NCBI RefSeq assembly: GCF_000331105.1 | Contig: NC_020054.1 | Span: forward strand, 4,576,257 to 4,640,256 | Source of the DNA: Fibrella aestuarina BUZ 2 | GTDB lineage: Bacteria > Bacteroidota > Bacteroidia > Cytophagales > Spirosomataceae | Direction: 5' to 3' | DNA length: 64,000 nucleotides | Part shown: positions 311 through 61,205 of the stretch, one piece after another | Layout of the letters: each line of letters opens with the position of its first letter | Position numbering within the stretch: the stretch's first letter is position 1 | Notes under the pieces: model-generated | What the model saw: the letters and a program-made list of their open reading frames with translations, nothing else | Told to the model about the DNA's origin: nothing | The model's database searches: none | Made by a program: the position numbers and the translations under genes

Positions 311-3300
311 TTGTTCAAAATCTACAGCGCATCGGCCGGGTCGGGCAAAACGTATACCCTGACCAAAGAATACCTCAAACTCGCGTTGGGGGAAGGGCAG
401 CCGTTGGCGGATACAACATACCGAGGCACGTATTTCCGGCACATCCTGGCCATCACGTTTACCAACGCGGCGGCCAACGAGATGAAAGACCGGATTCTGC
501 GCGAACTGGCCCAGATCACGCAGATTGACCTGACCGAAGCGGGCGACATCGCGGCGATTCAGGCCCGGAAAGACGCCCAGTTTTTGCTGGTCCTGACGAC
601 CGAACTGGCGAACGTACCTGACACGGCTCAGCTGACGGTAGCGCAGGTGATAGAGGTGCAGCGGCGGGCCAAACGGCTCTTTCAGGCCATTCTGCACCGC
701 TATTCCGACTTCTCGGTTACCACCATCGATGCGTTCACGCAGCGCCTCGTGATGGCCTTCACCGACGAACTGGGTCTTCCCTATTCGTTTGAGGTGGAAA
801 TGGAAACCGACCTGGTGCTGGAAGTGGCCGTCGATAACCTCATCGAACGCGTTGGCACCGACGAAATGGACGACATTTCGGCCATCCTGCACCAGATCTA
901 CGCCGAAACGGCCCGCGACGGTAAAAGCTGGAACATGATCGCCGACGCCCTGCGCGACTTCGGCAACGTGCTCACGTCTGATCAGCACTACGAAGCCATC
1001 GGCCGCATTGCCGAGCTCACGCCCGCTCAGCTGCGCACCATCCGGCAGCAACTGCTTCAGTTTGGGGCCGACGTCAAAAAACGCATTCAGGACGCTGGCC
1101 AACAGGCCTGGACGGCCATCACCCGCGCGGGGCTGGGCGTCGATGATTTCGCTCAGAAGTCGAAAGGGATCGGGGCGTTTTTCAAGGCCGTGGCGGAGGG
1201 TGACACCGACAAGGAACCGAACTCTTACCACCGCGCCGCCATCGACGAGGGCAACTGGATGGGCAAGAAGCCGCTGCCAGGTACGTTGGCGATCATTGAA
1301 GGCATTGCCGACGAGCTCTGCGCCTGTTTTGCGCTGATCGAGCAGGAGCGTACCGCCAACGGCAAGCTGCTGACGCTGTTCCGGGCCATCGACCCGCATT
1401 TGCAGAAAATGGCCCTGTTGCAGCAGATTCGGGCCGAGTTTGTGGAACTGCTGCGCAAAGACAACCGGGTGCACATTTCGGAGTTCAACAAACGCATCAA
1501 GGCGATTGTCGAGAGCGAGCCGGTGCCGTTTCTATTCGAGAAGCTCGGTAGTCGCTACAACCACATCCTGATCGACGAATTTCAGGACACCTCGCAGTTG
1601 CAGTTTGCCAACCTGCTGCCCCTGATCGAAAACGCGCTGGGCAGCAACTATTTCAACCTGGCCGTGGGCGATGGCAAGCAGGCCATTTACCGCTGGCGGG
1701 GCGGCGATATGGACCAGATTGTGGCACTGCACCGCAACCAACTCACCGACCTGCAACGCATTCACGGCCCCGACACCTGGACCGCCGAACGCATCGACAC
1801 GCTGGGCGGGCACATTCAACCCCAGTTGCTCGACACCAACTGGCGGTCGGCGCGGCCCATCGTGCAGTTCAATAATGACTTTTTCGACTTCGTGGCGCGC
1901 CGCTACGCCGCCGACAACCGGCGCATCGACGAGGTGTACGACGAACTAAAGGCCTTTCAGCAAAAACCGTCGCCCCGCGCCGCCGACACCGCGCACCTGC
2001 AACTGAACTTCCTCAGCGCCGACGACGCGGCACTGGCCGGGTTGGGTTCGCAGGCGGGCCGCAGCCTGGCCGACGAGGTGGTGAAGCAGACGGTGGCACA
2101 CATCCGGCAGGCCCGCGCCGATGGCTACGACTACGGTGATATGGCCGTGCTGACCCGCAGCCGCAAAAACGCGCAGCTCGTCGCCAATGAACTGAACCGC
2201 CTCAACATCCCGCTCGTTTCGGCCGATTCGCTGTCGTTGCAGTTTTCCGAGCCGGTGCGTTTTCTGGTGTCGTTGCTGACGATGCTGAGCCGACCCGGCC
2301 AGAAAACGCTGCATTACGAGGTGCTTTACCTCTACCACAGCGTGGTGCACAACCGCGTGCCCAACGACGAGCAGACCGAAGAGCTGCGTCAGGTGGCCGA
2401 CACCACCGAAGACTGGCCTACGTTCGACTACCTGGCCCGCGAAGGCTACGCGCTTGACGCCGGGATGCTCGTGCAGCTTAGCGTATATGAACTGGCCGAA
2501 AAGCTGACGCACGGCTTCCGCCTCTTCGACCGCACCCACGACCAGCCCTTCCTCTTCCGGTTTCTCGACGAAATCCTGACGTTCTGCGGCCGGCAAAGCG
2601 GGCACCTGGCCGATTTCCTGCTGCATTGGGAAGCCGTCAAAGGCAAGGTGTCGGTAAGCGAGGGCCTTACCCGTAACGCCGTTACCATCCAGACGATCCA
2701 CAAATCGAAGGGGCTGGAATACCCCGTCGTGATCGTGCCCTTTGCCGACTGGACGGTGGAGCCCAGCGCCCGCGACACGATCTGGGTCGATCTGGACGGC
2801 ATCGACGCCGAGGCGCTCTACGTGCAGCTCCCCGATGGCGGCACGGCCAAACTGCCCAACGCGCAGGTGACGCTGAAGAAAGAGCTGGACGGTGCCCCGC
2901 AACAGGTCGCGGCCCAGTATGCCGAGGAAAAAAGCCGGGCGTTCATCGAAAACATGAACCTGCTCTACGTGGCCTTTACCCGCCCCACCGACCGGCTGTA
3001 TATTATTGCCGAAAGCAAGAAGTTCAGCGACGCGCGGGCGCAGGCTACGGCGGCCTACTGGCTCCACAGCTTCCTGCGCGACAGCGACGTAGCCCAACAG
3101 GCCGGTTGCTGCTGGGAAGACGGGCGGCAGCAATACATCCTCTGTCAGGATGTGTCGACCATGAGGCCGTCGAAGCACGCGCTCGACTCGGCCGCGCCTG
3201 ACCGCATCGACTTTCGAGCCGTCAACAGCGGCTCGCGGGCGCAGAACCTGCAACTGCGCCGCCTGGCCGAGCGGGTGTTCGACACGCGCACCTTTGAACA

Positions 3301-6268: not shown

Positions 6269-7303
6269 ATGAGTATCAGCATAGATCATATTATAAGATA
6301 TGAATCTGAGAGTTCTAGGTTCGAATTTAAAAAGGAGGAGTACTTTTTAGGTAGAGATGGCAAGAAGCATGAGTTAATAAAAGATATATCTGCCTTTGCT
6401 AATCACCTTTCTGACGATGACAAATTTATCATTGTAGGGGTTAAAAATACCTTAGGCAATTACAATGAAGTATTTGGCATCCAAAATCCAACAGATGATG
6501 CACAATATCAGCAACTTATAATTGATAACATAGAACCCAAAGTTAACTTCGAATATAGAACTATAAAGCACAAAGATTATACTATATGCTATTTTAGAAT
6601 ATTTGATAATACTAATAGACCCTATCTAATAAAAAAAGACATCATAGGCCCTAATGGCAATAAAATAATTAGCTATGGTGATGGATTTGTGCGTGTTGGA
6701 ACATCAACAAAGAAGATGGGCAGAACTGAGCTTGATGATTCCTACAATAGTATAATCAATTATATAGATAGGCGCAACGATATAATTATTTCCCCAATCA
6801 TTAAGGAGGCAAACCTTGATTTGCCAAAGGCTTTATCAAAATTTAAAGAAAAGCTTTCGCTAAAACACCTTGATATTTCTATAACCAATAATTCACATAA
6901 ATCAATCAATCTGAACCCTGAGATTAGAATAAAAAAGAAAGACGACTTGTCTATCATTTCCAGCTACAAATACCATAGAATGTTGTATGAAGAAAAGATA
7001 GAATCAAAATCTCAATATTCTCTATTCCAATCACCTAGTCTACAAATCCCACCAATGCCCGACATGTTTGTCAACTTTGAGGAGAACGAATCCGAGTTCA
7101 TTTTTCAGAGAAACCGAATGAGTCACCAGACGTCAGCTATCAGAATAGACCAGAAAGACTCCCAAACTTCCGTTTTTGGAGATTCAATTATAGCGTTTTC
7201 TGGAAAAGGCTATAATACCATTCTATGCGAAGTTATAATTCGTAGTGATGAATTTGTAAAAGGGCCGCTGATTCAAGAAGTTTGCTTTAGTACAACTCAA
7301 TAA
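6269..7303 (+). CDS. Schlafen/AlbA_2-like putative nucleic-acid-binding protein
   Basis: The 344-residue product starts with an AlbA_2/Schlafen-type pattern: SSRFEFKKEEY, then ELIKDISAFANHL, then DDKFIIVGVKN, and FVRVGTSTKKMG at the end of the domain (residues about 12-160). This domain occurs in transcriptional regulators and in several anti-phage or nuclease proteins. The C-terminal half (160-344) is unfamiliar. Base composition is strongly AT-rich with many AAA, ATA and AAT codons, quite unlike metF or the curlin genes on either side, which points to recent transfer. It is the only gene in an islet bounded by 69-base direct repeats. A defence role is an inference from the domain and the context. 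Confidence 0.6.
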   Translation: MSISIDHIIRYESESSRFEFKKEEYFLGRDGKKHELIKDISAFANHLSDDDKFIIVGVKNTLGNYNEVFGIQNPTDDAQYQQLIIDNIEPKVNFEYRTIKHKDYTICYFRIFDNTNRPYLIKKDIIGPNGNKIISYGDGFVRVGTSTKKMGRTELDDSYNSIINYIDRRNDIIISPIIKEANLDLPKALSKFKEKLSLKHLDISITNNSHKSINLNPEIRIKKKDDLSIISSYKYHRMLYEEKIESKSQYSLFQSPSLQIPPMPDMFVNFEENESEFIFQRNRMSHQTSAIRIDQKDSQTSVFGDSIIAFSGKGYNTILCEVIIRSDEFVKGPLIQEVCFSTTQ

Positions 7304-17669: not shown

Positions 17670-18674
17670 ATGCGTTCACTTCGACCACCGCTCCAACTCC
17701 TGCTTCTTTTTCTGGTCTTCGTAAGTCGTCAGGCGCAGGCACAGCGGCCAGCCGATTACAGTGCCCAGCTTGCCGCCGGTTACGAACTCGGGGTGATCCC
17801 CAAGCTGCAAACGCTCGACAAGGCGTTGCACTTTGCCGTGGTTGGCGATTGGGGACGGCAGGGCGAGTTTCATCAGCGCGACGTGGCCCTGCAAATGGCC
17901 AAAGCCATGGCCGGACTGGGTGGTAGCTTCATCATCTCGACAGGCGACAATTTCTACCCCAGTGGCGTGAGGAGCACGCAGGACCCGCTCTGGCAGGGCA
18001 GTTTCGAGCAGATTTACCACTACGCCTGGCTCCAGCGCGACTGGTACGCCATTCTGGGCAACCACGATTATGCCGGGAACGTCGAGGCGCAGATTGATTA
18101 TTCGAAGATCAGCCGCCGCTGGCACATGCCCGCGCGCTATTACTCGCTCAAAAAGAAACTGGCGGGCAACGGCTGCGTGCAGTTTGTGTTTCTGGATACC
18201 AACGGCCTGGAACCGGATTACTATACCAACGACGAACTGGCCCCGGCCCTGAGCCAGCAGGACACGACGGCACAATTACGCTGGCTGCGCGAAACCCTCA
18301 GCGACCCCGACCCTACGATCCGCTGGCGCATTGTGGTGGGGCACCATCCCGTCTACACGGCGGGGAAGCGAACCGCCATCACCGGCCCCGTTCGGCGCAG
18401 CCTGGAACCGATCCTCAACCAATACAACGTCGACCTGTACATCTGCGGGCACGACCACGATTTACAATACAACAAGCCCGCTGGACCGACGCACCATTTT
18501 CTGTCGGGGGCGGGTTCCGAGCTGAGCAACGTACCCCACAAGACGCCCGAGAATGTCTTTTATCGGGGGGTCAATGGCTTCATGACGTTTTCTGTGCAGC
18601 CCACCCAATTTCTGGTGCAGATCATCGACGGAAAAGGAGCCATTCTGTTTTCACGCCTCATTCCCAAGTCATGA
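17670..18674 (+). CDS. Secreted metallophosphoesterase (purple acid phosphatase type)
   Basis: The 334-residue protein begins with a signal peptide (RPPLQLLLLFLVFVSRQAQA). Metallophosphoesterase ligands follow in order: AVVGDWG (D-x-G variant), STGDNFYPSG (GDN), ILGNHDYAG (GNHD), VVGHHPVY (GHH) and CGHDHDLQ (GHDH). The set and length match the tartrate-resistant (type 5) acid phosphatase group, which hydrolyses phosphomonoesters with a di-metal centre. It overlaps the next gene by four bases (ATGA at 18671), so the two phosphatases are translationally coupled. Role in scavenging phosphate from organic esters outside the cytoplasm is inferred. Confidence 0.9.
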   Translation: MRSLRPPLQLLLLFLVFVSRQAQAQRPADYSAQLAAGYELGVIPKLQTLDKALHFAVVGDWGRQGEFHQRDVALQMAKAMAGLGGSFIISTGDNFYPSGVRSTQDPLWQGSFEQIYHYAWLQRDWYAILGNHDYAGNVEAQIDYSKISRRWHMPARYYSLKKKLAGNGCVQFVFLDTNGLEPDYYTNDELAPALSQQDTTAQLRWLRETLSDPDPTIRWRIVVGHHPVYTAGKRTAITGPVRRSLEPILNQYNVDLYICGHDHDLQYNKPAGPTHHFLSGAGSELSNVPHKTPENVFYRGVNGFMTFSVQPTQFLVQIIDGKGAILFSRLIPKS

Positions 18675-20539
18675 TCCGCTTCCCGATTACGGTCCGCCGG
18701 AGCTGGCTGATCGCCCTCACCGGGCTGATCGGCTACTCGGCTGGGCTGGCGCAGCCCGTTGGCCGCTACACCACCGCCCAAGCCCATTCGCACAACGATT
18801 ACGAGCAAAACATCCCCTTCTGGACGGCTTATTACGCCCGGTTTGGCTCCATCGAAGCCGATGTGCACGCCCAGCAGGGAAAGCTCTACGTCGCCCACGA
18901 TGCCTCGGCCATCGACAGCAGCCGCACCCTCGACAACCTGTATATTCAGCCCATTCTCCAGAAAATCAGGGAGCACAAGGGGCAAATCTACGAAGGGGGC
19001 GAACCGCTGCAACTGCTAATCGACCTGAAAACCCCGGCGGCTCAGACACTGCCCCTGTTGGTCAACGCGCTGGCGGCACACCCGGCGGTGTTCGGCCCCA
19101 ACGGGCCCGTGCAGGTGGTGGTCAGCGGCAACGTACCTGCGCCCGAGCAGTTGGGCCAATACCCCGACTGGCTGCGCTTCGACGGCCGGCCGGGCGTCGC
19201 CTACACGCCCGAGCAACTCCGGCACATCGGCCTCATCAGCCAGTCGTTTCTGGCCTTCAGCCGCTGGAACGGGAAAGGCCTCGTCGTTAAAAAAGAAGCC
19301 GAGGCGCTGCGGGCGTTCGTCGCGCAGGGGCATCGGTTGGGCAAAAGGGTTCGGCTTTGGGCTACGCCCGACAACATTAATACCTGGAAAGCGCTCATCA
19401 ACCTGGGTGTCGATTACATCAATACCGACCAGATTGGGCCACTCGCGGCCTTCCTCAATACCCGGTCGACGGCGGACTATGTACAGCCGGCCCCGCACCC
19501 GCTCTACCAGCCGACGTACCGCAACAACGACGCCCGCAGCCGGGTCCGCAACGTGATTCTGCTGATTGGCGACGGCATGGGGCTGGCCCAGATTTACGCG
19601 GGCCTCACCGCCAACCGGGGTCAGCTCAACCTGAGCCGGATGCTCAACATCGGTTTCTCGAAAACCAGCGCGGCCGACACTTACATCACCGATTCGGCGG
19701 CAGGTGCAACGGCCATGGCGACGGGGCAAAAAACCAATAACCGCGCCATCGGTGTCGACACGCTGAACCGCCCGCTGCGGGCCATACCGGCGCTGGTGAA
19801 GCCGTGGGGCATGAAAAGCGGGCTGATCTCGATGGGTAGCGTGACCGATGCCACCCCGGCGGCGTTCTTCGCACACCAGCCCGACCGCGCCTTCGAGCGG
19901 GAAATCGCCGCCGATTTTCTGGCCAACAACACCGACATACTCATTGGGGGTGGGTTACGTCATTTTCAGGAGCAGCACCTGCTCGATTCGCTGCAACGGC
20001 GGGGCTACCGCATCGGCACCCAGTATAGTCAGCTGGCGCAGTTGAAAGCGCCCTTCGTGCTACTCGACGATAAAGCCGTAGTATCGGTCGAGGCTGGCCG
20101 GCCGCAGGTGCTGACTGGCAGCCTGCAAAAAACGCTGGCCGAATTAAGCCCCAACCCGGCCGGTTTTTTTATCATGGCCGAAGGCGCCCAGATCGACTAT
20201 GGCGGTCACGCCAACAAGCTCGGGTACGTGGTGCGCGAACTGCTCGATTTTGACGAAGCCATTGGCGCGGCAATGCGCTTCGCCGACGCCGACGGGCAAA
20301 CGCTGGTGGTCGTGACGGCCGACCACGAAACCGGCGGCCTGACCTTGCTGGATGGCAACCTGCAAAAGGGCTACGTCGACGGGCAATTCAGCACCAACGA
20401 CCATACCGGCGTGATGGTGCCCGTTTTTGCCTACGGCCCGCACTCGCTGGATTTTCGGGGTGTCTACGAAAACACCGACATCTTTGCCCGGATCATGGCC
20501 ATTCTCAACCAATACAAGATAAAGCCCGCTCAGAAATAG
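18671..20539 (+). CDS. Phosphodiesterase-like / alkaline phosphatase fusion
   Basis: The 622-residue secreted protein has two enzymes in one chain. After the signal peptide, residues about 38-280 form a GDPD/PLC-like barrel (AHSHNDYEQ, GSIEADVH, LYVAHD, DLKTP). From about 294 it is a PhoA-type alkaline phosphatase: LLIGDGMGLAQ, nucleophile Ser in TDSAAGATAMATGQKT, DATPAAFFAHQ, AEGAQIDYGGHAN and VTADHETGG. The arrangement suggests sequential cleavage, diester to monoester to phosphate. It is coupled by a four-base overlap to the acid phosphatase upstream. A strong palindrome follows at 20563-20614. Enzyme identities are family knowledge; the sequential use is inference. Confidence 0.85.
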   Translation: MIRFPITVRRSWLIALTGLIGYSAGLAQPVGRYTTAQAHSHNDYEQNIPFWTAYYARFGSIEADVHAQQGKLYVAHDASAIDSSRTLDNLYIQPILQKIREHKGQIYEGGEPLQLLIDLKTPAAQTLPLLVNALAAHPAVFGPNGPVQVVVSGNVPAPEQLGQYPDWLRFDGRPGVAYTPEQLRHIGLISQSFLAFSRWNGKGLVVKKEAEALRAFVAQGHRLGKRVRLWATPDNINTWKALINLGVDYINTDQIGPLAAFLNTRSTADYVQPAPHPLYQPTYRNNDARSRVRNVILLIGDGMGLAQIYAGLTANRGQLNLSRMLNIGFSKTSAADTYITDSAAGATAMATGQKTNNRAIGVDTLNRPLRAIPALVKPWGMKSGLISMGSVTDATPAAFFAHQPDRAFEREIAADFLANNTDILIGGGLRHFQEQHLLDSLQRRGYRIGTQYSQLAQLKAPFVLLDDKAVVSVEAGRPQVLTGSLQKTLAELSPNPAGFFIMAEGAQIDYGGHANKLGYVVRELLDFDEAIGAAMRFADADGQTLVVVTADHETGGLTLLDGNLQKGYVDGQFSTNDHTGVMVPVFAYGPHSLDFRGVYENTDIFARIMAILNQYKIKPAQK

Positions 20540-20562
20540 ACGTTTCGGCGTCGGTTGGTTCC

Positions 20563-20614
20563 GTGCGGCTCCCCATAGCGGGCGGTTCAGTCCGTCCGCT
20601 ATGGGGAGCCGCAC
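20563..20614. terminator. 19-bp perfect palindrome, REP-like terminator
   Basis: The arm GTGCGGCTCCCCATAGCGG (20563-20581) is exactly complementary to 20596-20614, with a 14-base loop and a TTTTCC run after it. It can terminate the phosphatase operon. Its inner part (AGCGGGCGGTT) and the following TTTTCCTACGG are shared with the palindrome at 23319-23356, so the two belong to one repeat family. Confidence 0.75.
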
Positions 20615-20692
20615 ACTTTTCCTACGGTTGACACCCGGCGATAGCCTCTGCCTACTCGCGCCGGTCTGAGTATGTTGCTACCGCGGGGGGCA

Positions 20693-20722
20693 TTGCGAGG
20701 CTGCAACGCTTTCGTATATTTA
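20693..20722 (+). promoter_or_regulatory. Candidate Bacteroidota promoter of the channel operon
   Basis: A -33 TTG (20693-20695) is followed after 19 bases by TATATTTA (20715-20722), which matches TAnnTTTG except for the last base. Transcription would begin near 20729, leaving a leader of about 120 bases before the first gene. The surrounding 20540-20848 gap otherwise contains only the palindrome upstream. Confidence 0.4.
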
Positions 20723-20848
20723 CTTATACTTTTTCTATAGAATAATACCGATTCATCAAGTTTTTCTTATCCTTATGCACTCAGGCTTGGCGATGAGAGG
20801 ATCAGCAGGCCTTTACCGCTACCAATCGGTATCTCCGTTTCTGCGACC

Positions 20849-21535
20849 ATGCGTTCTACAGCTATCATGACTGTGCATCAACTGATACAGCCCAGAAAAT
20901 ATGAAGTTCTGCTGGCAGCCCTGATTCAACATTTGTTCGTCGGTATTTTTCTGTCCAACTTATCCATTTACACGCGCATCATCTGGCCCATCAATATGTT
21001 GGTACTCGGCATTGCCAGTATTGGCATTTTTAGTGAAAAAAGGCGATGGAAAAACCGCGTCAGAGATATATTATTCCTGTTTGTTTTATTGTTACCCATT
21101 GGCCTGCCTTTTTTCGGCTACATACCTGCCTACTTTTTCGCGCTAAATGGGCTTTACGTAGCCTTCTTTATCTTCATTTTTCTGGAGGTTATTAACTTCC
21201 TGATCAGGCCCAGTTATATCAATACGGATATCATATCGGCGGCCGCCTGTGGCTTTTTTCTGTTGATTGAAATGGCTGTTTTTCTTCTGCAAGCTTTTCA
21301 GTACGTCAACCCAGGCTCATTTAGAGGGATTGATCGCAGTAGCCCAGCCAGCACGTTCATTGATCTGGTTTATTTCTCCTGCATAACCATTACCAGTATT
21401 GGGTTTGGCGACATTACACCCAATACCTACCAGACCAAATTAATCACCTCGCTTTTTGGTGTAGTCGGGCAGTTTTATACCGTCGTTCTGGTAGGTATTC
21501 TGATTAGCAAATTCACCTCAAAAACCACAGAATAA
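20849..21535 (+). CDS. Two-pore-domain-like K+ channel protein
   Basis: The 228-residue protein has about six hydrophobic helices and ends with an ion-channel pore module: a pore helix and the selectivity filter TSIGFGD (residues 182-188) followed by a last transmembrane helix (VVGQFYTVVLVGILISKF). GFGD is a known variant of the K+ filter GYGD. No C-terminal RCK/TrkA-N domain follows, so gating must come from elsewhere. It is the first gene of a tight three-gene operon with a bestrophin-like channel (6 bases downstream) and an LCIB-like protein. The operon is less GC-rich than its neighbours. Met at 20867 is an alternative start. Confidence 0.75.
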   Translation: MRSTAIMTVHQLIQPRKYEVLLAALIQHLFVGIFLSNLSIYTRIIWPINMLVLGIASIGIFSEKRRWKNRVRDILFLFVLLLPIGLPFFGYIPAYFFALNGLYVAFFIFIFLEVINFLIRPSYINTDIISAAACGFFLLIEMAVFLLQAFQYVNPGSFRGIDRSSPASTFIDLVYFSCITITSIGFGDITPNTYQTKLITSLFGVVGQFYTVVLVGILISKFTSKTTE

Positions 21536-21541
21536 CGAAGT

Positions 21542-22549
21542 ATGCATGCAGGACGATCGTACCGCTTTTCGGAGTTTCTACGCTGGACCCGCCGCACCAT
21601 CTATTGGTTATTAGGAATCGGAATACTACCTACTTTATTGTATCAGGTAGCGGGGCTGAAGTGGCTGGCCATTCCCTGGACGGTGGTTGCCCTCTTGGGT
21701 ACAGCTACGGCCTTTATCGTTGGTTTTAAAAATACCCAAACCTACAATCGAACCTGGGAAGCCCGACAGATTTGGGGTGCCATCCTGAACAGCAGCCGGT
21801 TTTGGGGCACCATGTGCCGTGATTTTCTGCACGACCCCGACGCCTCTAAAGAGCTGATTTACCGTCATTTTGCCTGGCTCACCGCCCTTCGCTATCAGAT
21901 GCGGGACAGCCGTATCTGGGAAACCACCAGCAAGACATACAATGCTGAATATCAACAGTTCTATTCAGTTCCGGAAAGAGAAACACCGCTGCAAACGGAA
22001 CTGTCCAACTACCTGCCACCCGACGAGTTAGCGTATATCCTGACGACCAAGAACCGAGCAGCCCAGCTGATGAGTTTGCAGAGTAAAACCACTAAACAGC
22101 TTTTCGACGACGCTCGAATAGACAGCTACCAGTTTGTGGAAATGCAACGGATGATCAAGGATTTTTTCGATCAGCAGGGCCGCAGTGAACGTATCAAAAA
22201 CTTTCCATATCCACGCCAGTTCGCGACGATCAACGCGCTGTTCATCAAGCTTTTTTGCGTCCTGCTGCCTTTTGGTATGCTGAGGGAGTTTGACAAACTG
22301 AACGATGGCATGACGGGTATTATGCAGGGTCACATGGTCTGGCTGGTGATTCCGTTCAGTGTGCTTATTTCGTGGGTATATACCTCGCTGGAACAGGTAG
22401 GCGAAAGCACCGAAAACCCGTTTGAAGGTAGCGCCAACGACGTACCTATCTCGCAATTGAGCCGCACCATCGAAATCGACTTGCGCGAGATGCTCGGTGA
22501 AACGGATCTGCCTCCCGCTCTGCAACCCAAAAACGATATCATTCTCTAA
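21542..22549 (+). CDS. Bestrophin-like anion channel (UPF0187 family)
   Basis: The 335-residue membrane protein carries the prokaryotic bestrophin signature FIVGFKNTQTYNRTWEAR-QIWG near residues 60-80, preceded by two hydrophobic helices and followed later by GMLREFD-linked helices and a final FSVLISWVYTSLEQVGE segment with NPFEG. Bestrophins form pentameric anion (chloride/bicarbonate) channels in eukaryotes; bacterial members are less studied. It sits between the K+-channel-like gene (6 bases upstream) and an LCIB-like gene (20 bases downstream). In algae, bestrophin-like proteins BST1-3 are linked to the LCIB/LCIC system for CO2/bicarbonate, so bicarbonate is a reasonable but unproven substrate here. 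Confidence 0.85.
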   Translation: MHAGRSYRFSEFLRWTRRTIYWLLGIGILPTLLYQVAGLKWLAIPWTVVALLGTATAFIVGFKNTQTYNRTWEARQIWGAILNSSRFWGTMCRDFLHDPDASKELIYRHFAWLTALRYQMRDSRIWETTSKTYNAEYQQFYSVPERETPLQTELSNYLPPDELAYILTTKNRAAQLMSLQSKTTKQLFDDARIDSYQFVEMQRMIKDFFDQQGRSERIKNFPYPRQFATINALFIKLFCVLLPFGMLREFDKLNDGMTGIMQGHMVWLVIPFSVLISWVYTSLEQVGESTENPFEGSANDVPISQLSRTIEIDLREMLGETDLPPALQPKNDIIL

Positions 22550-22569
22550 CACGATTACCAGCCAATACC

Positions 22570-23313
22570 ATGCTAAAAAAACAAAAACTGGCCATCATCC
22601 GAGCGTGGTACCCGAACGCGATGACGACCATCGACAGTGTAAACAGGCTCATTGACTTTGTCGAAGAAACGCTCGAACTCGAGCCTACGCAGGTTATGCT
22701 CGCCGATAGCATTTGTAGCGATGATGTCAACAGCATCCAATATCCGGCCAGAGCTATGGAGTTTTTGGGGCCCTTCAAAATGGGTGGGTTGGATGGTTTT
22801 CCCTTTACAGGACTGACCGGCATGGGCGCTTTTGCCAGCCACGTACCTGACAGTGGCGCCGTATTTATTTATTATGGCCCGCATATCGGCATCACCAAGA
22901 CGGGTGTTATTGGCGAAATTCACCGGCTGGGGCAGCACCAGAATAGCGGCTGCTGCGGGGCCGCCAAAGGTGCGCTGGCCAAATTATTGACCAACCAGAT
23001 CGTGGAGGGCAACATCACTGAGCTGGACTATCAGATGAACACAATCGAACAGATTCTGTGGAAACAGAAAGACCGGATTGTACAGGCCGAAACACCGCTT
23101 TTTGAAGCCACAGAAGTCATCTACGAAGCCATTGACAAGCGCATCAACGAGTTGGTAGCACAGACCAGCTACACCTGTAAATATGTCATCCTGATGGGTG
23201 CCGTACTGGTCAATAGCGACAGCGACATGGGTTCTTATACATCAGCCAAACGCTTTGATGTCATCGACCTGACCACTAACGAACGGCAGGATCTACTGGC
23301 TCATTTCAACTAA
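22570..23313 (+). CDS. LCIB/LCIC-like (theta-type) carbonic anhydrase homologue
   Basis: The 247-residue cytoplasmic protein shows the conserved pattern of limiting-CO2-inducible B/C proteins: SICSDDVNS (Cys49, Asp51), GGLDGFPFTGLTG, SHVPDSGAVFIYYGPHIGI (His91, His105), IGEIHRLGQ and SGCCGAAKG (Cys128-129). In the LCIB family a Cys, a His and a second Cys bind zinc and the fold is that of a beta-type carbonic anhydrase. No signal peptide is present. It is the last gene of an operon with a bestrophin-like channel and a K+ channel, which suggests coupling of anion flux to CO2/bicarbonate interconversion. Assignment is from recalled motifs; activity is not provable here because some LCIB proteins are inactive. 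Confidence 0.75.
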   Translation: MLKKQKLAIIRAWYPNAMTTIDSVNRLIDFVEETLELEPTQVMLADSICSDDVNSIQYPARAMEFLGPFKMGGLDGFPFTGLTGMGAFASHVPDSGAVFIYYGPHIGITKTGVIGEIHRLGQHQNSGCCGAAKGALAKLLTNQIVEGNITELDYQMNTIEQILWKQKDRIVQAETPLFEATEVIYEAIDKRINELVAQTSYTCKYVILMGAVLVNSDSDMGSYTSAKRFDVIDLTTNERQDLLAHFN

Positions 23314-23318
23314 GCGGG

Positions 23319-23356
23319 TTCCATTAGCGGGCGGTTTAAACCACCCGCTAATGGAA
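23319..23356. terminator. 38-base near-perfect palindrome after the LCIB gene
   Basis: TTCCATTAGCGGG (23319-23331) pairs with CCCGCTAATGGAA (23344-23356), with GGTTTAAACC between them also palindromic. It lies 6 bases after the stop and is followed by a T-rich stretch, so it should terminate the channel operon. It is related to the palindrome at 20563-20614 on the other side of the operon. Confidence 0.75.
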
Positions 23357-23471
23357 TAAGTCAATTTTTCCTACGGATAGCCACTACTCGACACTGGCCT
23401 GCCGAAATGCCCAACTGCCCGCTTGCAGCCCCTTTGTAGGCCGATCGGTATTCGGAGTCTTTCGTTGATAA

Positions 23472-23490
23472 CGTTCCCGACAACGATTGC
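23472..23490 (+). promoter_or_regulatory. LacI-type operator O1 upstream of susC
   Basis: CGTTCCCGACAACGATTGC recurs exactly at 34985-35003 and 36131-36149, each time in a regulatory position of the pectin locus. The right half-site AACGATTGC is intact; the left half is only partly symmetrical here. It lies about 150 bases before susC. Binding by the LacI-family protein encoded at 35007-36035 is inferred. Confidence 0.75.
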
Positions 23491-23541
23491 GTAATTAATC
23501 TAGCGTGTTCGCTTGGTAATCCTCCGGTTGCCCGGCTACTT

Positions 23542-23575
23542 CCCCTACCGATATCGGCAGGGGTTTATTTTTTTT
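23542..23575 (+). terminator. Terminator-like hairpin in the susC leader
   Basis: CCCCTaCCG-ATAT-CGGcAGGGG (23542-23563), an imperfect stem, is followed at once by TTTATTTTTTTT. It stands between operator O1 and the susC start, on the coding strand. It could be an attenuator within the leader, or the terminator of an unrecognised upstream transcript. Confidence 0.6.
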
Positions 23576-23639
23576 ATGCCGTGCCCTCTTCGGATAGTGC
23601 AATTCCAATACCCTGTCACGTCTTCCAATCCGTTTCTTT

Positions 23640-26600
23640 ATGAAGTACTTCTACCTGTATCTGATGTTGCTTGGACTCACAATGGCGGCTCAGGCACAGT
23701 CGACCCGTCAGCTCACGGGACAGATCAACGACGGGAGTTCCAACAGCGCCCTGCCCGGTGTCAGCATCGTGGTTCAGGGTACGTCCGTCGGCACCACCTC
23801 CGATGGCTCGGGGAACTTCAGCCTGCGGGCACCCGATCGCGACAACCTCACGCTGGTTGTCAGTTTCATCGGCTATACCTCTAAACAGGTTAAAGTGGGT
23901 AACCAGACCAACCTGACGATTGCCCTCGACGCCGACACCAAAGCGCTCGACGAAGTGGTCGTGGTCGGCTACGCCACCGTCAACAAGCGCGACGTGACGG
24001 GGTCGGTATCGTCGGTGAGTACCAAACAGCTGCGCGATATCCCGCTGACCAATGCCGCCGAGGCACTGACGGGGCGGTTGGCGGGAGTGCAGGTCACCAC
24101 CTCGGAAGGGTCGCCCGGCGCGAACATTCAGATCCGGGTACGTGGGGGTGGCTCCATCACGCAGGACAACTCCCCGATCTACGTTGTCGATGGCATACAG
24201 GTCGAAAATGCACTCAATTTTTTGTCGCCACAGGACATTGAGAGCATCGACGTGCTGAAAGACGCCTCCACCACGGCCATTTACGGGGCTCGCGGGGCCA
24301 ACGGTGTCGTGATCATCACGACCAAATCGGGCCGGGGTGGCAAGACCACCGTCAGCTACAACGGCTCGATGGGTTTTCGGGAAATCACCAAAAAAATGGG
24401 CGTGCTCGACCCCTACGAGTTTGTGCGCTGGCAGTATGAACGCAGCCGCGGCGATGCTACCCTCGAAAGCTCCTTTGCCGCTCAGTATGGTACCTGGGAC
24501 AACATCAACCAGTACAAAACCGCCGAGCCCATCAACTGGCAGCAGGAAGTGTTTGGGCGGCGGGCACCCTACCAGAACCACAACGTCGTGGTCAACGGCG
24601 GCTCGGCGCAGACCAATTTTAACCTGAGCCTCACGGCCAATAAGGAAGATGGCGTGCAACTCGAATCGGGTTTCGACCGCTACCTGGCCACCTTCCGCCT
24701 CGACCATAAGGCGTCCGACAAACTGAAGGTGGGCCTGAACGTGCGGTACCTGAATCAGACGATCCGGGGTGCGGGCACCACCACGAGCGGCACCAAAGCC
24801 ACCAACCGCCTGCGTCACTCGATTCAGTACCGTCCGCTGCTGGTGGGCGTCAACCCGACCGTCGATGATTTCGACGAAAACCTGTACATCTCGTCGGGCA
24901 ACCTGGTCAACCCCATCCTGATGACGCAGGCCGAGTACAGCCGCAACTACACGCGCGCCCTCAACCTGAGTGGGTACGTTAATTACAACATCACCAACGA
25001 CCTGACCTTCCGCTCGACAATTGGCCTCGACGACAACGACAACCAGATCAATCAGTTCTGGTCGAAGGTGACGGGAACGGCCCGCAACTATGCCTCGCTG
25101 CCGGTGGCGTCGATCTACCAGCAGAACGCCATCACGATCAACAACGCCAACACGCTGCAATACCACAAGCTGCTGGCAGGAAAGCATGACCTCACGGTGT
25201 TGCTGGGGCAGGAGATTTATGATTACAGCGCGAAGAACACCACCATGGAAACGCGCTACTTCCCCGCCGACATCGGCCCGGAACCGGCGCTGGCCAATAT
25301 GGGGCTGGGCTCAGCCCCGACGGGGGCGGCCCAGCCGCGCAACATCTCAAACGAACTGCCGCCCAACCGCCTGTTTTCGCTCTTCGGGCGCGTGAGCTAC
25401 AACCTGTCCGACAAATACCTGGCGACGGTATCGCTGCGCTCCGACCGGTCTTCGAAGTTCAACTACGAAAACGGCGCGCTGGTGTTTCCATCGGGCACGG
25501 CCGCGTGGCGGTTTTCGAAAGAGCCGTTCCTGAAAAACGCGACCTGGCTCACCGACGGTAAGCTGCGCATCGGCTACGGCGTGGCGGGCAACAACCGGAT
25601 CGGCGATCTGCTCTACCAGCAGTTGTATGGCGTAACGGGCGAATATGCGCTCAGCCACTCGGTCCTGCCCGCCTACGCGCCCATCTCGCTGGCCAATCCC
25701 AACCTGAAGTGGGAATCGACGGTATCGGAGAATATCGGTCTGGACCTGGCGTTCCTCAACAACCGCTTCCAGCTGTCGATCGACGCCTACCAGAACACCG
25801 GCCGCAACCTGTTGCTCGCCGTCGCCATTCCGCCAACGTCGGGCTATTCGTCGCAGATTCAGAACCTGGGTTCGACGCAAAACCGGGGCCTGGAATTGCA
25901 GCTGACGGCCTATCTGGTGCAGAAGCGCGACTTCTCGTGGACATCGAGTTTCAACCTGTCGGCTAACCGCAACAAGGTGCTGGATCTGGGCCCGGTCACG
26001 CAGCAAACGCGCAACTCGGGCTGGCAGGGGTCGGATGGCACCGACGACTACCTGGTGAAGGTGGGCGAGCCGGTGGGGCTGATGTATGGCTTCGTCACCG
26101 ACGACTATTACAAAGTGGACGACTTCACCTACAATGCCGCCACGCAGACGTACACGATCAAACCGGGCATCGCCGTCAATTCGGTCTACGGCGTGCCGCA
26201 GCCGGGGATGCTGAAATGGAAAGACCTCAACGGTGACGGCGTTATCACGGCCGACAAAGACCGGACGGTGATCGGCAACGCGAACCCGAAGTTTATCGGC
26301 GGCTGGAACAACCAGTTTACCTACAAAAACTTCGACGCCAGCATCTTCGTCAACTGGGTCGTGGGCAACGATATCTACAACGCTAACAAAATCGAGTGGA
26401 CCGACGGGGCCTTCCCGAACCTGAACCTGCTCGACATCATGAAAACCCGCTGGACCAACATCAACGACGCCGGGCAGGTGGTTACCGACCCCGACGCGCT
26501 GAAGGCCCTGAACACCAACGCGACCATCTGGACGCCCGTTCGGGTGCAGCGGTACTGGCTGCACTCGTGGGCGGTCGAAGATGGCTCGTTCCTGCGGATC

Positions 26601-40285: not shown

Positions 40286-40397
40286 AATGAATAATGTATG
40301 ATGAATAATGCACAATGAGCTGACGCACAATTGAGTTGACGCCCCCTTGTACATTGTGCATCGTACATTATTCATTGTCCATCATACATTATTCATT
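40286..40397. repeat. Intergenic inverted repeat (ATGAATAATGT family)
   Basis: The outer arms AATGAATAATGTATGAT (40286-40302) and ATCATACATTATTCATT (40381-40397) are perfectly complementary, and inner words (AATGCACAATG / CATTGTGCAT) pair further. The element shares its words with those at 28671 and 51089. It fills the kduI-kduD gap. Confidence 0.75.
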
Positions 40398-44795: not shown

Positions 44796-45405
44796 GAGGG
44801 GTGGCGCCAGCCTGAGCACCCATCGGCGTACTCAGCAGTTGCGTAATATCGTCGTTATCGAGCAAACGTACCTCGCCGGGCTGCATCCCCGCCGCCGTCA
44901 GGGGCCCAATGGACCAGCGCACCAGCCGCAACGTCGGGAACCCCACGGCGGCCGTCATCCGACGGACCTGCCGATTTTTCCCCTCGGTCAGCGTCAGGGC
45001 GATCCAGGAAGTCGGGATGTTGGCCCGGAAGCGGATGGGCGGGTTACGGGGCGGCAGATCGGGCTCGTCGGTGAGGCGTTGGGCGATGGCCGGGCGGGTG
45101 CGGTGCGCTTTCCCATCCACGCTGATCGTGACCCCCTCGGCCAGCTGACGCAGCGCCTCGTCGGTGATGGCTCCGTCGACTTGCACGTAGTAGGTCCGTT
45201 CGTGGGCAAACCGGGGGTCGAGCAGGCGGTGGTTGATGCGTTTGTCGCTCGTCAGCAGCAACAGCCCTTCACTATCCGCGTCGAGCCGCCCCACCGGATA
45301 TACGTCTTTCGCGAAGGCGAACGGCAGATCCGCCAGCGTTTGGTTTTCGCCTTCCGGCGAAAACTGCGAGAGCATCAGGTACGGTTTGTAGATCAGAACG
45401 TGCAT
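44746..45405 (-). CDS. rluE: 23S rRNA pseudouridine synthase RluE family
   Basis: The 219-residue protein isomerises a uridine of 23S rRNA. It has the catalytic motif YPVGRLDADSEGLLLLT (Asp), ERTYYVQVDGAI, the RluE-type insert RNPPIRFRANIPTSWIAL and the C-terminal NRQVRRMTAAVGFPTLRLVR. No S4 domain precedes the catalytic core, as in RluE. A Lys/Arg/Pro-rich tail (PPKNLPLRPRKRW) overlaps the next gene. An inverted repeat lies just upstream of its start. Confidence 0.9.
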   Translation of the reverse strand: MHVLIYKPYLMLSQFSPEGENQTLADLPFAFAKDVYPVGRLDADSEGLLLLTSDKRINHRLLDPRFAHERTYYVQVDGAITDEALRQLAEGVTISVDGKAHRTRPAIAQRLTDEPDLPPRNPPIRFRANIPTSWIALTLTEGKNRQVRRMTAAVGFPTLRLVRWSIGPLTAAGMQPGEVRLLDNDDITQLLSTPMGAQAGATPHARPPKNLPLRPRKRW

Positions 45406-45410
45406 GGAAT

Positions 45411-45521
45411 AATGAGATAAAGAGTGAAAGAGCGAATGAGTGAATGGGCTGACGCGTTCATTGCGCCTGCGTCAGCCCATTCACTCATTCACTCATTCGC
45501 TCTTTCACTCTTTATCTCATT
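45411..45521. repeat. Long inverted repeat between xth and rluE
   Basis: The left arm begins AATGAGATAAAGAGTGAAAG at 45411 and the right arm ends CTTTCACTCTTTATCTCATT at 45521; more than 40 bases of each arm pair, with one extra 8-base unit (ACTCATTC) in the right arm. The loop is about 13 bases. The right arm carries the stop codon and last ten codons of xth, so the element has inserted into or grown over the gene end. Confidence 0.85.
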
Positions 45522-49638: not shown

Positions 49639-51090
49639 ATGAACAAGAGTCAAACCATTTCCCTGAGTGTGCTGGGCGTTACCCTAACGCTGGCTCAGGC
49701 CTTCAGTACGGGCGGTTTTGCGTCGCGGAAGGCGGTGTTGCCGCAGCCGCTCCGGTCGGAAGTAGCCGCGCGCGACACCATCGAAGACCCCAGCGCGGTC
49801 GTCCTGAACAAGATCATCGCCAAGGTCGACAACTACTACGTGTTGCAGTCGGACCTGGAGGAGTCATACAACTCGTATGCCGCGCAGGGGCAGCAGGCGC
49901 CCCAGAAGTGCCAGTTGCTCGAAAGCCTCGTCATCAACAAAATGATGCTGGCCAAAGCCGAGATCGACTCGGTGGTGGTCGATGATAAGCTGGTGGATAG
50001 CCAGCTCGACAGCCGGATGTCGTACATGATTCAGCAGTATGGGTCCGAGAAAAACATTGTCGAGCAGTTTGGTAAGAGCCTGGAGATGCTCAAGAGCGAG
50101 GTACGTACCCAGGTGAAAGACCAGATGCTGACCCGCAAGATGCAGGAGACGATCACGGCCAAAACCAAGGTGACGCCCCGCGACGTGCTGAAATTCTTCA
50201 ACAGTATCCCGAAAGACAGCCTGCCCTACATGCCCGCCGAAGTAGAAGTGGGGCAGATTGTGCGGTACGCCAAAGTGAGCAAAGCCCAGAAAGACCAGCT
50301 CATTCAGCGGCTGCGTTCGTTGCGTGACAGCGTTGCGGCCGGGGCTGACTTCGCCGCCCTGGCTAAAGCCAATTCGGAAGACGTCGTTTCGGCGCAGAAC
50401 GGCGGCGACCTCGGCTACGCCAAACGCGGGATGATGGTCGCTCCGTTTGAAGGGGCCGCCCTGAAACTCAAGCCCGGCGAGATGTCGGACGTAGTGGAGT
50501 CTGACTTTGGGTATCACCTGATTCAGTTGATCGAAACGCGCGGCGCCGAGTACCACGCCCGCCACATTCTGCTGCGCCCGGAATACGCCCGCCTCGACGT
50601 CAACGAGCCGACCCGTTTTCTGGACAGCCTGAAGCATCAGATCGAGATTGACAGCATCAAATTCGACAAAGCGGCCAAAGATTTTTCGGAAGACAAGGCT
50701 ACGGCCGATGCGGGTGGCATCATTCGTGATCCGCAATCGGGAGGGTCGCGGCTGGCGATGGACGGCTCGATGGACTACGCCATGTTTACGATTCTCGACA
50801 CAATGACGGTTGGCAAAATCACGCCGGTACTCCCCTACCGCTCCGACGACGGCAAAACCGGCGTGCGGATTTTGTACTACAAAACCAAAATCCAGCCCCA
50901 CACGGCCGACTATAAGGTCGACTTCGAAAAGCTGCAGAATATCGTTTTGCAGAACAAGAAGAACAAAGCCATCGACGAGTGGTTTCGTAAATCAGTCAGT
51001 GACGTCTACATTACCGTCGATCCGCAATACACGGGTTGTCGCATCTTCGGCACCACCCAGACAGGCAGTGCCCAGGCCAGTAACAATTAA
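49639..51090 (+). CDS. SurA-like periplasmic foldase
   Basis: The 483-residue protein has a signal sequence, a SurA N-domain (NKIIAKVDNYYVLQSDLEESYNSY with the conserved LESLVINKMM, residues about 55-190) and a parvulin domain (VGQIVRYAKVSKAQKDQL; NSEDVVSAQNGGDLGYAKRG; SDFGYHLIQLIETRG), followed by a second, weaker one (ARHILLRPEYARLDVNEP). It is a chaperone/isomerase for outer-membrane proteins. The gene lies directly after the larger PPIase lipoprotein. Met 49639 precedes the signal peptide; the TTG at 49618 does not add signal character. Confidence 0.88.
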   Translation: MNKSQTISLSVLGVTLTLAQAFSTGGFASRKAVLPQPLRSEVAARDTIEDPSAVVLNKIIAKVDNYYVLQSDLEESYNSYAAQGQQAPQKCQLLESLVINKMMLAKAEIDSVVVDDKLVDSQLDSRMSYMIQQYGSEKNIVEQFGKSLEMLKSEVRTQVKDQMLTRKMQETITAKTKVTPRDVLKFFNSIPKDSLPYMPAEVEVGQIVRYAKVSKAQKDQLIQRLRSLRDSVAAGADFAALAKANSEDVVSAQNGGDLGYAKRGMMVAPFEGAALKLKPGEMSDVVESDFGYHLIQLIETRGAEYHARHILLRPEYARLDVNEPTRFLDSLKHQIEIDSIKFDKAAKDFSEDKATADAGGIIRDPQSGGSRLAMDGSMDYAMFTILDTMTVGKITPVLPYRSDDGKTGVRILYYKTKIQPHTADYKVDFEKLQNIVLQNKKNKAIDEWFRKSVSDVYITVDPQYTGCRIFGTTQTGSAQASNN

Positions 51091-51195
51091 TGAATAATGT
51101 ACGATGCACAATGTACAATGGGAGCGCTCAGGTGACGTACCTGGCCGTTACGAGGTAGCCGCCCATTGTACATTGTGCATCGTACATTATTCATT
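51089..51195. repeat. 34-bp perfect inverted repeat
   Basis: The arms 51089-51122 and 51162-51195 are exactly complementary over 34 bases (AATGAATAATGTACGATGCA... / ...TGCATCGTACATTATTCATT). The 39-base loop contains one copy of the GTAC word. It separates surA-like (stop inside the left arm) and moxR genes. It is the best-preserved member of the ATGAATAATGT family here. Confidence 0.9.
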
Positions 51196-53689: not shown

Positions 53690-53806
53690 GCTGCGCCGTC
53701 ATTTGACTTCGTCGTCATTGGTGGTCATTGATTGTCATTTGTCGCAAAACAACGAATGACAATCAATGACCACCAATAACGCGAAGCAGATGACAGCGCA
53801 ACCCAC
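53690..53806. repeat. Long inverted repeat between truA and a Uma2 remnant
   Basis: A perfect 23-bp core (ATTGGTGGTCATTGATTGTC... at 53717-53739, complement at 53755-53777) has outer arms that pair imperfectly (GCTGCGCCGTCATTTGACTTC / GAAGCAGATGACAGCGCAAC). The loop is 15 bases. It begins beside the broken end of the Uma2 fragment. Confidence 0.85.
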
Positions 53807-58611: not shown

Positions 58612-59232
58612 TCAAACGTTCCAACTTTGTATAGTATGGACTAGGTTCTGACGCCCTAACTCATACGCGATAAAAGGAGCGTTTTCTTGTAAATAGCTAA
58701 ACTGAACTTTGTTTTTAACATAGTCTCTTATAATTCCAAGTCTGGCTTGAACTAAGTTATCATCAATATTGAGTTTCAATTTTCTGATTGTGAAATCCAC
58801 TAAACTATATTGATTTGAATCAAGAAAATTAGGTTGGTTGTTTGGGTGAATAAGATAAGTTCTGAAATCCAAAACGAACCATCCATACTGAACAGTAAAA
58901 GGATCTACTATAGTATAATTTAGTTTTCGACTATTAAATCGCCTAGCAGCTAATCTAAAATTAGCCCATTCGTAAGCAAGGCTAGGGTCAACATCTCTAG
59001 ATATATAATGATCTACCGTTGGATCACCAGTATGAGCAGGTATTTTTATTGCACAATATGCACAAATATTATCATAAGAAGTCTGTAACTCCGGTATACA
59101 TTTCCTCCAATATTCTTTTCTAATCCATTCTGAACCTCTTGGTCTAGGTGTCGTTTTTAAGAATTTCAACCCTTTCTGACGAACTTTAATATCAAAATCG
59201 CCAGGTTCTTGCTTCGGAGTTACTGGTATCAT
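58612..59232 (-). CDS. HNH endonuclease of the PtuB/TIGR02646-like type
   Basis: The 206-residue protein has an HNH core: CAYCAIKIP (zinc-type Cys pair), TVDHYISRDVDP (catalytic VDH), then YEWANFRLAARRFNSRK (Asn and following basic residues). The N-terminal part (FDIKVRQKGLKFL; WIRKEYWRKCIPEL) matches the small HNH proteins encoded beside AAA ATPases, such as PtuB of Septu and retron-linked systems. It starts 16 bases after the ATPase gene and is the last gene of the cassette. It is the probable toxic effector that cuts nucleic acid when released by the ATPase. AT-rich like its partners. Confidence 0.7.
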   Translation of the reverse strand: MIPVTPKQEPGDFDIKVRQKGLKFLKTTPRPRGSEWIRKEYWRKCIPELQTSYDNICAYCAIKIPAHTGDPTVDHYISRDVDPSLAYEWANFRLAARRFNSRKLNYTIVDPFTVQYGWFVLDFRTYLIHPNNQPNFLDSNQYSLVDFTIRKLKLNIDDNLVQARLGIIRDYVKNKVQFSYLQENAPFIAYELGRQNLVHTIQSWNV

Positions 59233-59248
59233 CTCTGTTCAAATATTT

Positions 59249-60532: not shown

Positions 60533-61202
60533 CGTTTTCTATAGTTATGCTTTGAAGTGACTTTACCTTCTCCGCAGGGGCATCTACAGGAGCCGGAATA
60601 GAAAAAAAATTCCTGAATACCCCCCAATTAAATCCATCCGGCGACAATAAATTATTACCTCTATATTCTATAGGAATATCAAAATCAAAAAGCACAACCT
60701 CTTCTTCTGATATATTAAATTCTGTATAAAACAATTCTTTAATGGCCTCTAAGCTTAGCTTTGTTTCAATCCAATTATGATCTCTGTACAACCAAATTGC
60801 CAAACTGTAGAAAGGAATTTTATTGCCGTTTTGAAGATTATTAGCTAGTACATCAATATAATTTTCTGACCAGCCCCATAAGTTTGATCGTTTTGGATGA
60901 ATGAATGCTTCGCCGAATTTCTGAGTTCTATTACTTTGTGAACCGCTATTAGCATAGTCGGACTTCAACCAAAACTTCTCTTTTTCTGACGGCCTAAATA
61001 CTCTAAAAAAATACGTCGTATTAACTATTGGCTTGAAATGAATTTCTAAAAACTCCGCCTCTAAATGGCTGATCTGAAACTCTATCGTTCTTCCAATTGG
61101 CAACTTATTATGTTTGCATACTAAAAAGGTAATACCATAAAATGGCTGAACATTTTCTAAGTCAGCGAATGCTCTATGAACAGCATCTTGGCTAATGTAC
61201 AT
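60498..61202 (-). CDS. Unknown protein, N-terminal part of the split ATPase
   Basis: The 234-residue frame starts 3 bases after the methyltransferase and overlaps the ATPase frame by 35 bases. Residues 1-210 are an unrecognised domain rich in aromatic residues (QPFYGITFLVCKHNKLPIG; HPKRSNLWGWSENYIDVL; LAIWLYRDHNWIETKLSL; FDFDIPIEYRGNNLL). Residues 212-234 (KSLQSITIENVGPANAFQ) are the first strand of an ABC-type ATPase and continue, one base out of frame, into the next gene. The N-terminal domain could bind DNA or the methyltransferase and give target choice. No catalytic motif is apparent. Confidence 0.6.
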   Translation of the reverse strand: MYISQDAVHRAFADLENVQPFYGITFLVCKHNKLPIGRTIEFQISHLEAEFLEIHFKPIVNTTYFFRVFRPSEKEKFWLKSDYANSGSQSNRTQKFGEAFIHPKRSNLWGWSENYIDVLANNLQNGNKIPFYSLAIWLYRDHNWIETKLSLEAIKELFYTEFNISEEEVVLFDFDIPIEYRGNNLLSPDGFNWGVFRNFFSIPAPVDAPAEKVKSLQSITIENVGPANAFQLFF

Positions 61203-61205
61203 AAA

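Follow-up and report, generated by a model that had tools for sequence, protein, structure and literature searches.

A bestrophin-carbonic anhydrase operon with a K+ channel-like gene in Fibrella aestuarina and its recurrence in related bacteria

Introduction

In the CO2-concentrating mechanism of Chlamydomonas, the bestrophins BST1-3 and the LCIB/LCIC proteins belong to one inorganic-carbon pathway, housed in a chloroplast with a pyrenoid. The same two kinds of protein are paired in the locus described here, a single bacterial operon of Fibrella aestuarina BUZ 2, a member of the Spirosomataceae (Bacteroidota), in which the genes for a bestrophin and an LCIB-type carbonic anhydrase (CA) follow that of a K+ channel-like protein, and in whose relatives a beta-CA can replace LCIB. 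The operon was analyzed within a stretch of 64,000 nucleotides (nt) (the window; contig NC_020054.1, positions 4,576,257 to 4,640,256). It belongs to the 6.78-Mb contig, one of two that make up the 6.94-Mb genome.

Among the closest described bestrophins, KpBest of Klebsiella (4wd7/4wd8) is likewise bacterial; according to passages of PMC8496536 it is a Na+-selective channel with an I-I-F neck, in which the substitution I66F shifts the preference from Na+ to Cl-, whereas the operon bestrophin has a T-F-F neck. The thylakoid protein VCCN1 belongs to the same family and is an anion channel of an energised membrane, but differs from the operon bestrophin by a P-L-F neck and an N-terminal extension; no CA partner is mentioned for it in passages of PMC9076864, while the operon bestrophin has one. 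On the enzyme side, the diatom protein PtLCIB4 (5b5y) and 6kfs have the fold, at a TMq of 0.78-0.80, the zinc-site residues and a conserved Asp/Arg in common with the operon LCIB, yet are just 25-27% identical to its model in structural alignment.

The operon and its recurrence in related genomes

The operon consists of the following genes:

20849..21535, + strand: K+ channel-like protein, 228 amino acids (aa); PF07885, 1.9e-13
21542..22549, + strand: bestrophin of the Bestrophin_2 family, 335 aa; PF25539, 5.3e-42
22570..23313, + strand: LCIB-type (beta-like) CA, taken as cytosolic, 247 aa; PF18599, 4.9e-80

All three open reading frames (ORFs) lie on the + strand in the order K+ channel-bestrophin-LCIB, with intergenic gaps of 6 nt and 20 nt, and their coordinates confirm the three closely spaced genes reported in a first-pass annotation made from the sequence alone. 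The three Pfam matches (Ion_trans_2, Bestrophin_2, LCIB_C_CA) all exceed the curated cut-offs. On balance, we lean towards the operon being a bacterial bestrophin-CA unit at the cytoplasmic membrane, with a role in inorganic carbon and pH handling. The protein families, the predicted zinc-site residues and a recurrent linkage support the earlier proposal in part, and its suggestion of a joint acquisition of the operon genes is upheld only partially (see below).

Co-occurrence of these genes in related genomes, on which the first-pass annotation had made its proposal depend, was found. Scanning of genome contigs yielded 90 confirmed LCIB relatives, of which 80 loci were kept, all from named genomes (two contributing two loci each); since similarity to the window LCIB was the basis of selection, the resulting rates hold for near relatives. 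At 44 of the 80 loci a bestrophin gene shares the strand of LCIB and lies no more than 300 nt from it, upstream in 37, as in the window, and downstream in 7, which indicates that the pair came together in either order. At 3 more loci a bestrophin lies elsewhere within 7 kb, and L032b, a second and unlinked copy, was left out of the linked counts. The K+ channel is present at 15 of the 80 loci, 13 of them ordered K+ channel-bestrophin-LCIB. Seven further LCIB loci from within the class include three with a bestrophin at a distance of up to ~3 kb, two of these also with the K+ channel.

A Na+/H+ antiporter of the CPA1 type is found beside the bestrophin or LCIB at 8 of the 80 loci (L073, L083, L085, L091, L100, L106, L052 and L059; PF00999 was run on L073 and L106, the others being called by clustering or motif). 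A small ORF intervenes in L100, and in L052 and L059 the bestrophin and the antiporter are adjacent to each other but ~5 kb away from LCIB. Six loci carry a DoxX-like gene and/or a small gene upstream of the K+ channel, the antiporter or LCIB, both being present, ahead of the K+ channel, in L043 (3367-4149), L056, L099 and L105 and one of them in L106 and L109. The small gene, which we take to be NTF2-like, gave no Pfam match. The DoxX-like membrane protein and the small protein are possible further members of the module.

A reverse test started from the window bestrophin alone. Of 395 genomes of the class, 82 gave a match at <=1e-60, and the best 30 places were taken by similarity alone, leaving 29 after removal of the window's own. 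Given a few CA genes among some thousands of genes, a CA neighbour would by rough reckoning be expected in ~0.1% of cases. Eight of the 29 bestrophins are next to a canonical beta-CA gene, which is directly downstream on the same strand, with gaps of -4 to 39 nt, in L155, L159, L160, L164, L168, L170 and L173, and convergent with the bestrophin in L158. These eight loci span five families, with four in family f90 and four in four others; PF00484 was run on L155 and L159, to which the other six are homologous (55-92% identity). Three more of the 29 are beside LCIB (L149, L157 and L176, the last read by eye and confirmed), and in three a CPA1 antiporter is upstream (L150, L157, L169). The class of CA thus varies, LCIB or beta-CA, while the pairing of CA and bestrophin persists.

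Individual loci show additional arrangements. In L160 (842-4017, - strand) a CASTOR/POLLUX-like channel, the bestrophin and the beta-CA form an apparent operon, with an unrelated channel in the place of the K+ channel. In L201 (1-2439, - strand) and L208 (1419-3901, + strand), bestrophins with Phe in the neck and without CA have a CPA1 antiporter directly downstream. L176 has a DoxX-like gene (2634-3002) preceding the bestrophin, and a urea transporter gene (PF03253; 1-696) on the opposite strand adjoins its bestrophin-LCIB pair; urea breakdown likewise yields CO2. The LCIB gene of Spirosoma lacussanchae (L015/L075) has an in-frame stop and is probably decaying. Fused two-domain proteins were not found among the best 120 of 1675 LCIB and the best 120 of 8000 bestrophin homologues.

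Predicted properties of the three proteins

The identification of the third gene as an LCIB/LCIC homologue, made in the first-pass annotation, holds at the levels of profile, sequence and fold. The LCIB_C_CA score is 268.4 bits against a cut-off of 25, and the sequence matches 6kfs (7e-30), two more LCIB-family sequences (2e-29), PtLCIB4 (1e-23) and, in Chlamydomonas, LCIC (4e-7) and LCIB (9e-7) in the PDB. An AlphaFold model built with 33 aligned sequences (predicted local distance difference test, pLDDT, 89; predicted template modelling score, pTM, 0.88) gave Foldseek TMq values of 0.74-0.80 to PtLCIB4/6kfs (0.80 to PtLCIB4 5b5z) and 0.63-0.71 to LCIC/LCIB, compared with 0.34-0.39 to classical beta-CAs. 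No signal peptide was evident by inspection, and for this reason the protein is taken as cytosolic.

22714..22956, + strand: predicted zinc/catalytic residues Cys49 (22714-22716), Asp51, His91 (22840-22842), Arg119 and Cys128/Cys129 (22951-22956)

The residues of the predicted Cys-His-Cys zinc site (C49, H91, C128/C129) are present, and C49, D51, D52, H91, R119, C128 and C129 are invariant in 80 and in 33 LCIB sequences, window included (L075, with an internal stop, was left out of this alignment and of the tree described below). The first-pass annotation had named Cys49, His91 or His105, and Cys128/129 as the candidate site. His91 aligns with His88 of PtLCIB4, the residue mutated in 5b5z, its position having been found by counting along the alignment. 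Judged from spacing, R119 probably matches Arg194/193, which according to passages of a review (PMC5876011) is disordered in the inactive proteins of Chlamydomonas.

The assignment of the second gene as a bestrophin was upheld by the Bestrophin_2 profile (144.7 bits against a cut-off of 27) and by the match to KpBest (4wd7; E 8e-23, residues 28-122 and 147-329); the VCCN1 structure 7ek1 is matched at E 8e-4.

21701..21727, + strand: bestrophin neck Thr54-Phe58-Phe62, aligned to KpBest I62-I66-F70 (4wd7)

The KpBest neck numbering was placed by its I-x3-I-x3-F spacing. Phe occupies the KpBest I66 position in 44 of 44 scored LCIB-linked bestrophins (window included) and in the 3 of 3 copies within 7 kb; the broken L100 bestrophin (pieces under 250 aa) was left out of this count, though counted as linked. 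The T-F-F neck agrees with the anion-favouring KpBest variant I66F, other determinants of selectivity also existing. A table row in passages of PMC8496536, apparently for human Best4, gives a PHCO3/PCl of 0.65.

21392..21412, + strand: K+ selectivity filter TSIGFGD, residues 182-188

The first gene had been assigned to a K+ channel family with a GFGD filter, in agreement with its Ion_trans_2 score (50.6 bits against a cut-off of 22.5) and with the filter TSIGFGD. The protein has 6 predicted membrane helices and a single pore, and a G-F/Y-G-D filter with invariant glycines is found in 16 of 16 aligned channel sequences, window included. Its best sequence matches in the PDB are KCNQ, SK and K2P channels, and inspection of the voltage-sensor segment revealed no Arg-rich S4 (Arg repeat). 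In the best AlphaFold model of the monomer (pLDDT 81; the other four, 51-63) the helices fit 6 transmembrane segments plus a pore helix, and Foldseek searches with the channel model returned no significant structural match.

Proposed function and alternative explanations

In the mechanism that we infer, in which ion, direction and enzyme activity are put conditionally and families, fold, residues and linkage are those described above, the cytosolic LCIB-type zinc enzyme would interconvert CO2 and HCO3-, as its family, fold and residues suggest. HCO3- would then cross the inner membrane through the bestrophin, the outward direction being favoured with an inside-negative membrane, and the K+ channel would carry the counter-charge, so that the membrane potential does not stop the anion current. 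As a net effect, K+ and HCO3- would leave while the proton stays inside, which amounts to export of base, and respiratory CO2 could in this way serve to acidify an over-alkaline cytosol. The CPA1 Na+/H+ antiporters that adjoin the bestrophin in sister loci could act to the same effect. LCIB occupies the CA slot in certain lineages, an ordinary beta-CA in others. The CO2/HCO3- module of the first-pass annotation gains from the orthologous bestrophins that stand beside a beta-CA; its transport and activity stay inferred.

The thylakoid lumen is topologically equivalent to the bacterial exterior. According to passages of PMC6708349, BST1-3 of algae are believed to deliver HCO3- to this lumen. By analogy, outward HCO3- flow in the bacterium would have the same orientation as flow from stroma to lumen, with LCIB on the same side, which in both the Chlamydomonas mechanism and the proposed bacterial unit is the negative side of an energised membrane.

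Several observations weigh against such a unit. The same genome encodes a beta-CA besides LCIB as well as four further bestrophins, and the idea that LCIB is its sole CA is ruled out by this additional beta-CA. The K+ channel is a minority partner at the LCIB loci, and one of the operon's family lies beside 1 of the 29 unselected bestrophins (L149). Eighteen of these 29 orthologues have no CA within flanks of ~1.5 kb, although carrying the neck Phe. No bestrophin is found within 7 kb at 33 of the 80 LCIB loci, some of them on short contigs, or within ~3 kb at any of 13 loci taken from the 29 found outside the class, so LCIB also occurs alone. In addition, the Chlamydomonas LCIB/LCIC proteins are without activity in vitro (passages of PMC5876011), and plant VCCN1 has Leu at the I66-equivalent position, yet conducts Cl- (passages of PMC9076864).

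The neck adds further points on this side. Phe as a mark of CA linkage was rejected, since it is shared by 8 of 33 LCIB-unlinked bestrophins from the host and ten other genomes (L116 of the host genome, L143, L147, L201 and L205-L208). The comparison covered 38 bestrophin places in the ten genomes and 5 in the host, with L202-L204 recognised as LCIB-linked copies that were counted above. The other 25 unlinked bestrophins carry Leu, Ile, Met or Thr at this position and are distant paralogues, at 20-34% identity; the neck Phe is accordingly a marker of a bestrophin clade and no independent test of CA linkage. No CA was found in the flanks of these 25. Among the matches listed, L178 (genome G003) is a bestrophin with an I-V-F neck and a beta-CA 95 nt downstream (1384-3050); this pair, without neck Phe, counts against the neck argument, and neck-Phe bestrophins are therefore not the only ones linked to a CA. 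The L178 bestrophin is from another subfamily, and the CA link may thus reach beyond one bestrophin clade.

The same genes could instead serve HCO3- uptake at low CO2/high external HCO3-, as a small CO2-concentrating mechanism in which the bestrophin admits HCO3-, the CA equilibrates it for carboxylases and the K+ channel or a Na+/H+ antiporter sets the driving force. The match of the gene families to the algal mechanism and the interchangeable CA class are what uptake would lead one to expect; it is, however, established biophysics that HCO3- does not build up through a passive anion channel when the cell interior is negative, and any accumulated HCO3- pool would be collapsed by a CA in the cytosol; we regard uptake as unlikely. 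In thylakoids, a shift of the proton-motive force from potential to pH gradient is attributed to VCCN1, K+ channels and KEA3, and a membrane-potential valve formed by the bestrophin and the K+ channel might mainly bring about the same, the CA supplying HCO3-/H+ buffering. A valve would account for the recurrence of a K+ channel, a CASTOR/POLLUX-like channel or a CPA1 antiporter beside these bestrophins. It needs no CA, yet a CA is present at 11 of the 29 unselected bestrophins, against an antiporter at 3 and a cation channel at 2, which makes the valve decidedly unlikely.

A non-catalytic barrier has been proposed as the role of Chlamydomonas LCIB/LCIC. That the operon LCIB is a non-enzymatic regulator or scaffold of the channel, binding CO2/HCO3-, is somewhat less probable again: the inactivity in vitro of the Chlamydomonas proteins (passages of PMC5876011) is in keeping with it, whereas the zinc and candidate catalytic residues are invariant, an ordinary beta-CA replaces LCIB in sister loci, and the sequence resembles 6kfs and the diatom protein PtLCIB4 more closely than it does LCIB of Chlamydomonas. 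That the genes are neighbours by chance, or were carried along with a mobile segment, could explain the low GC, the patchy distribution and the bracketing palindromes described below. This reading is very improbable in view of the linkages at 44 of 80 and 11 of 29 loci, the two gene orders, the replacement of one CA class by the other and the lack of any match to LCIB in 72,556 records of plasmids.

Recurrent CA neighbourhoods with two interchangeable classes provide a concrete substrate hypothesis, HCO3-, for bacterial bestrophins, and the recurrence of pairs of these genes in related bacteria points to a common role in CO2, bicarbonate and pH. The bestrophin-CA pair comprises tractable proteins for examining the coupling outside the chloroplast, and studies of bicarbonate transport could draw on the operon for compact parts of bacterial origin. 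Among the literature matches listed, in titles and abstract openings with few subscription papers covered, there was no bacterial bestrophin-CA operon. More speculatively, and with little expectation that it will prove right, the operon could be to bacteria what the complete ion circuit is to thylakoids (an anion channel of the bestrophin family, a K+ channel, a cation/H+ antiporter and a CA feeding HCO3- to the channel from the negative side), with the bestrophin and a CA of either class joined physically in a membrane metabolon. In that event, the algal cooperation of bestrophin and LCIB would be a re-use or parallel invention of an existing bacterial pairing.

Distribution and possible lateral transfer

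The operon genes are poorer in GC than their neighbours, as noted in the first-pass annotation, having GC contents of 0.425, 0.507 and 0.505, compared with 0.59-0.62 in three flanking genes, and values at third codon positions (GC3) of 0.51, 0.61 and 0.62, compared with 0.73-0.82. The best named protein matches for all three genes are in Fibrella sp. WM1 (LCIB 94%, bestrophin 93%, K+ channel 86%), where the trio is probably on one contig, the same longest contig (723,048 bases) being given for each. In a genus sample of 5 genomes LCIB occurs in 1, the host, Fibrella sp. WM1 being an additional carrier. Across 200 genomes of the family, PF18599 was detected in 40 (39 over the cut-off), Bestrophin_2 in 164 and beta-CA in 188, and across 395 genomes of the phylum LCIB was detected in 35, of which 29 are outside the class.

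On the LCIB tree the order label changes 24 times, compared with 38.8 for shuffled labels and a minimum possible of 7; 11 rows have no order label, and metagenome-assembled genome labels and paralogues inflate the count. The sequence tree is therefore clustered but crosses orders. Distances between partners correlate only moderately, with r of 0.29 for LCIB and bestrophin over 44 rows (0.46 over 29 near ones) and, over 14 rows, 0.52 for K+ channel and bestrophin and 0.32 for K+ channel and LCIB; we make no claim that the trio was inherited together over the long term. L099 has an LCIB 64% but a bestrophin 81% identical to those of the window, and this combination of a near bestrophin with a distant LCIB suggests that the partners have been exchanged singly in some relatives.

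No match to LCIB was found in 72,556 plasmid records; 182 records match the K+ channel, all under 60% identity (25.6% among the matches listed). The empty site was not comparable, because four congeners match the upstream gene at only 37-40%, and over its first part. Overall, GC and tree fit lateral spread of the operon genes. As to acquisition as a unit, the patchy distribution, low GC and order-crossing tree are in its favour, while the presence of the trio in a congener and the single exchange of partners are not.

Bracketing hairpins and other features of the window

The operon is flanked by an alkaline phosphatase/GDPD protein gene and a TonB receptor gene of the SusC type. Related palindromes bracketing it, already pointed out in the first-pass annotation, were recovered as two hairpins:

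20563..20614, no strand assigned: hairpin with 23-nt arms, starting 23 nt beyond the upstream gene's stop codon
23319..23356, no strand assigned: related hairpin with 19-nt arms, starting 5 nt beyond the stop codon of LCIB

The two share a core, are each followed by TTTTCCTACGG and fold strongly (z -8.9 for 20563-20614 and -5.5 for 23319-23356). The exact pattern written from them has three copies in the 6.94-Mb genome, two being the bracketing pair and the third sitting between listed ORFs. A consensus terminator scan listed neither bracketing hairpin, because no T run directly follows the stem. By themselves the hairpins demonstrate neither a terminator nor a mobile unit; terminators bounding the operon seem to us likelier than element ends, for which nothing speaks beyond the bracketing pair itself. 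Rfam gave no riboswitch match across window positions 18000-26000.

Elsewhere in the window, long inverted repeats with arms of 30-52 nt, mostly intergenic, are found at 45404-45521, 51089-51195, 40286-40376 and 53713-53781; two of them share AATGAATAATGTA-type sequence and perhaps represent a genome repeat family. A gene of GC 0.33 (6269-7303, + strand) encodes a Schlafen/AlbA_2 domain, its first part matching the candidate defence family PDC-S50. A low-GC (0.35-0.42) defence cluster at 58612-62084 (- strand) comprises Septu PtuB, PtuA and a type II DNA methylase, the PtuA part consisting of two adjacent ORFs, each corresponding to one half of a single PADLOC model.

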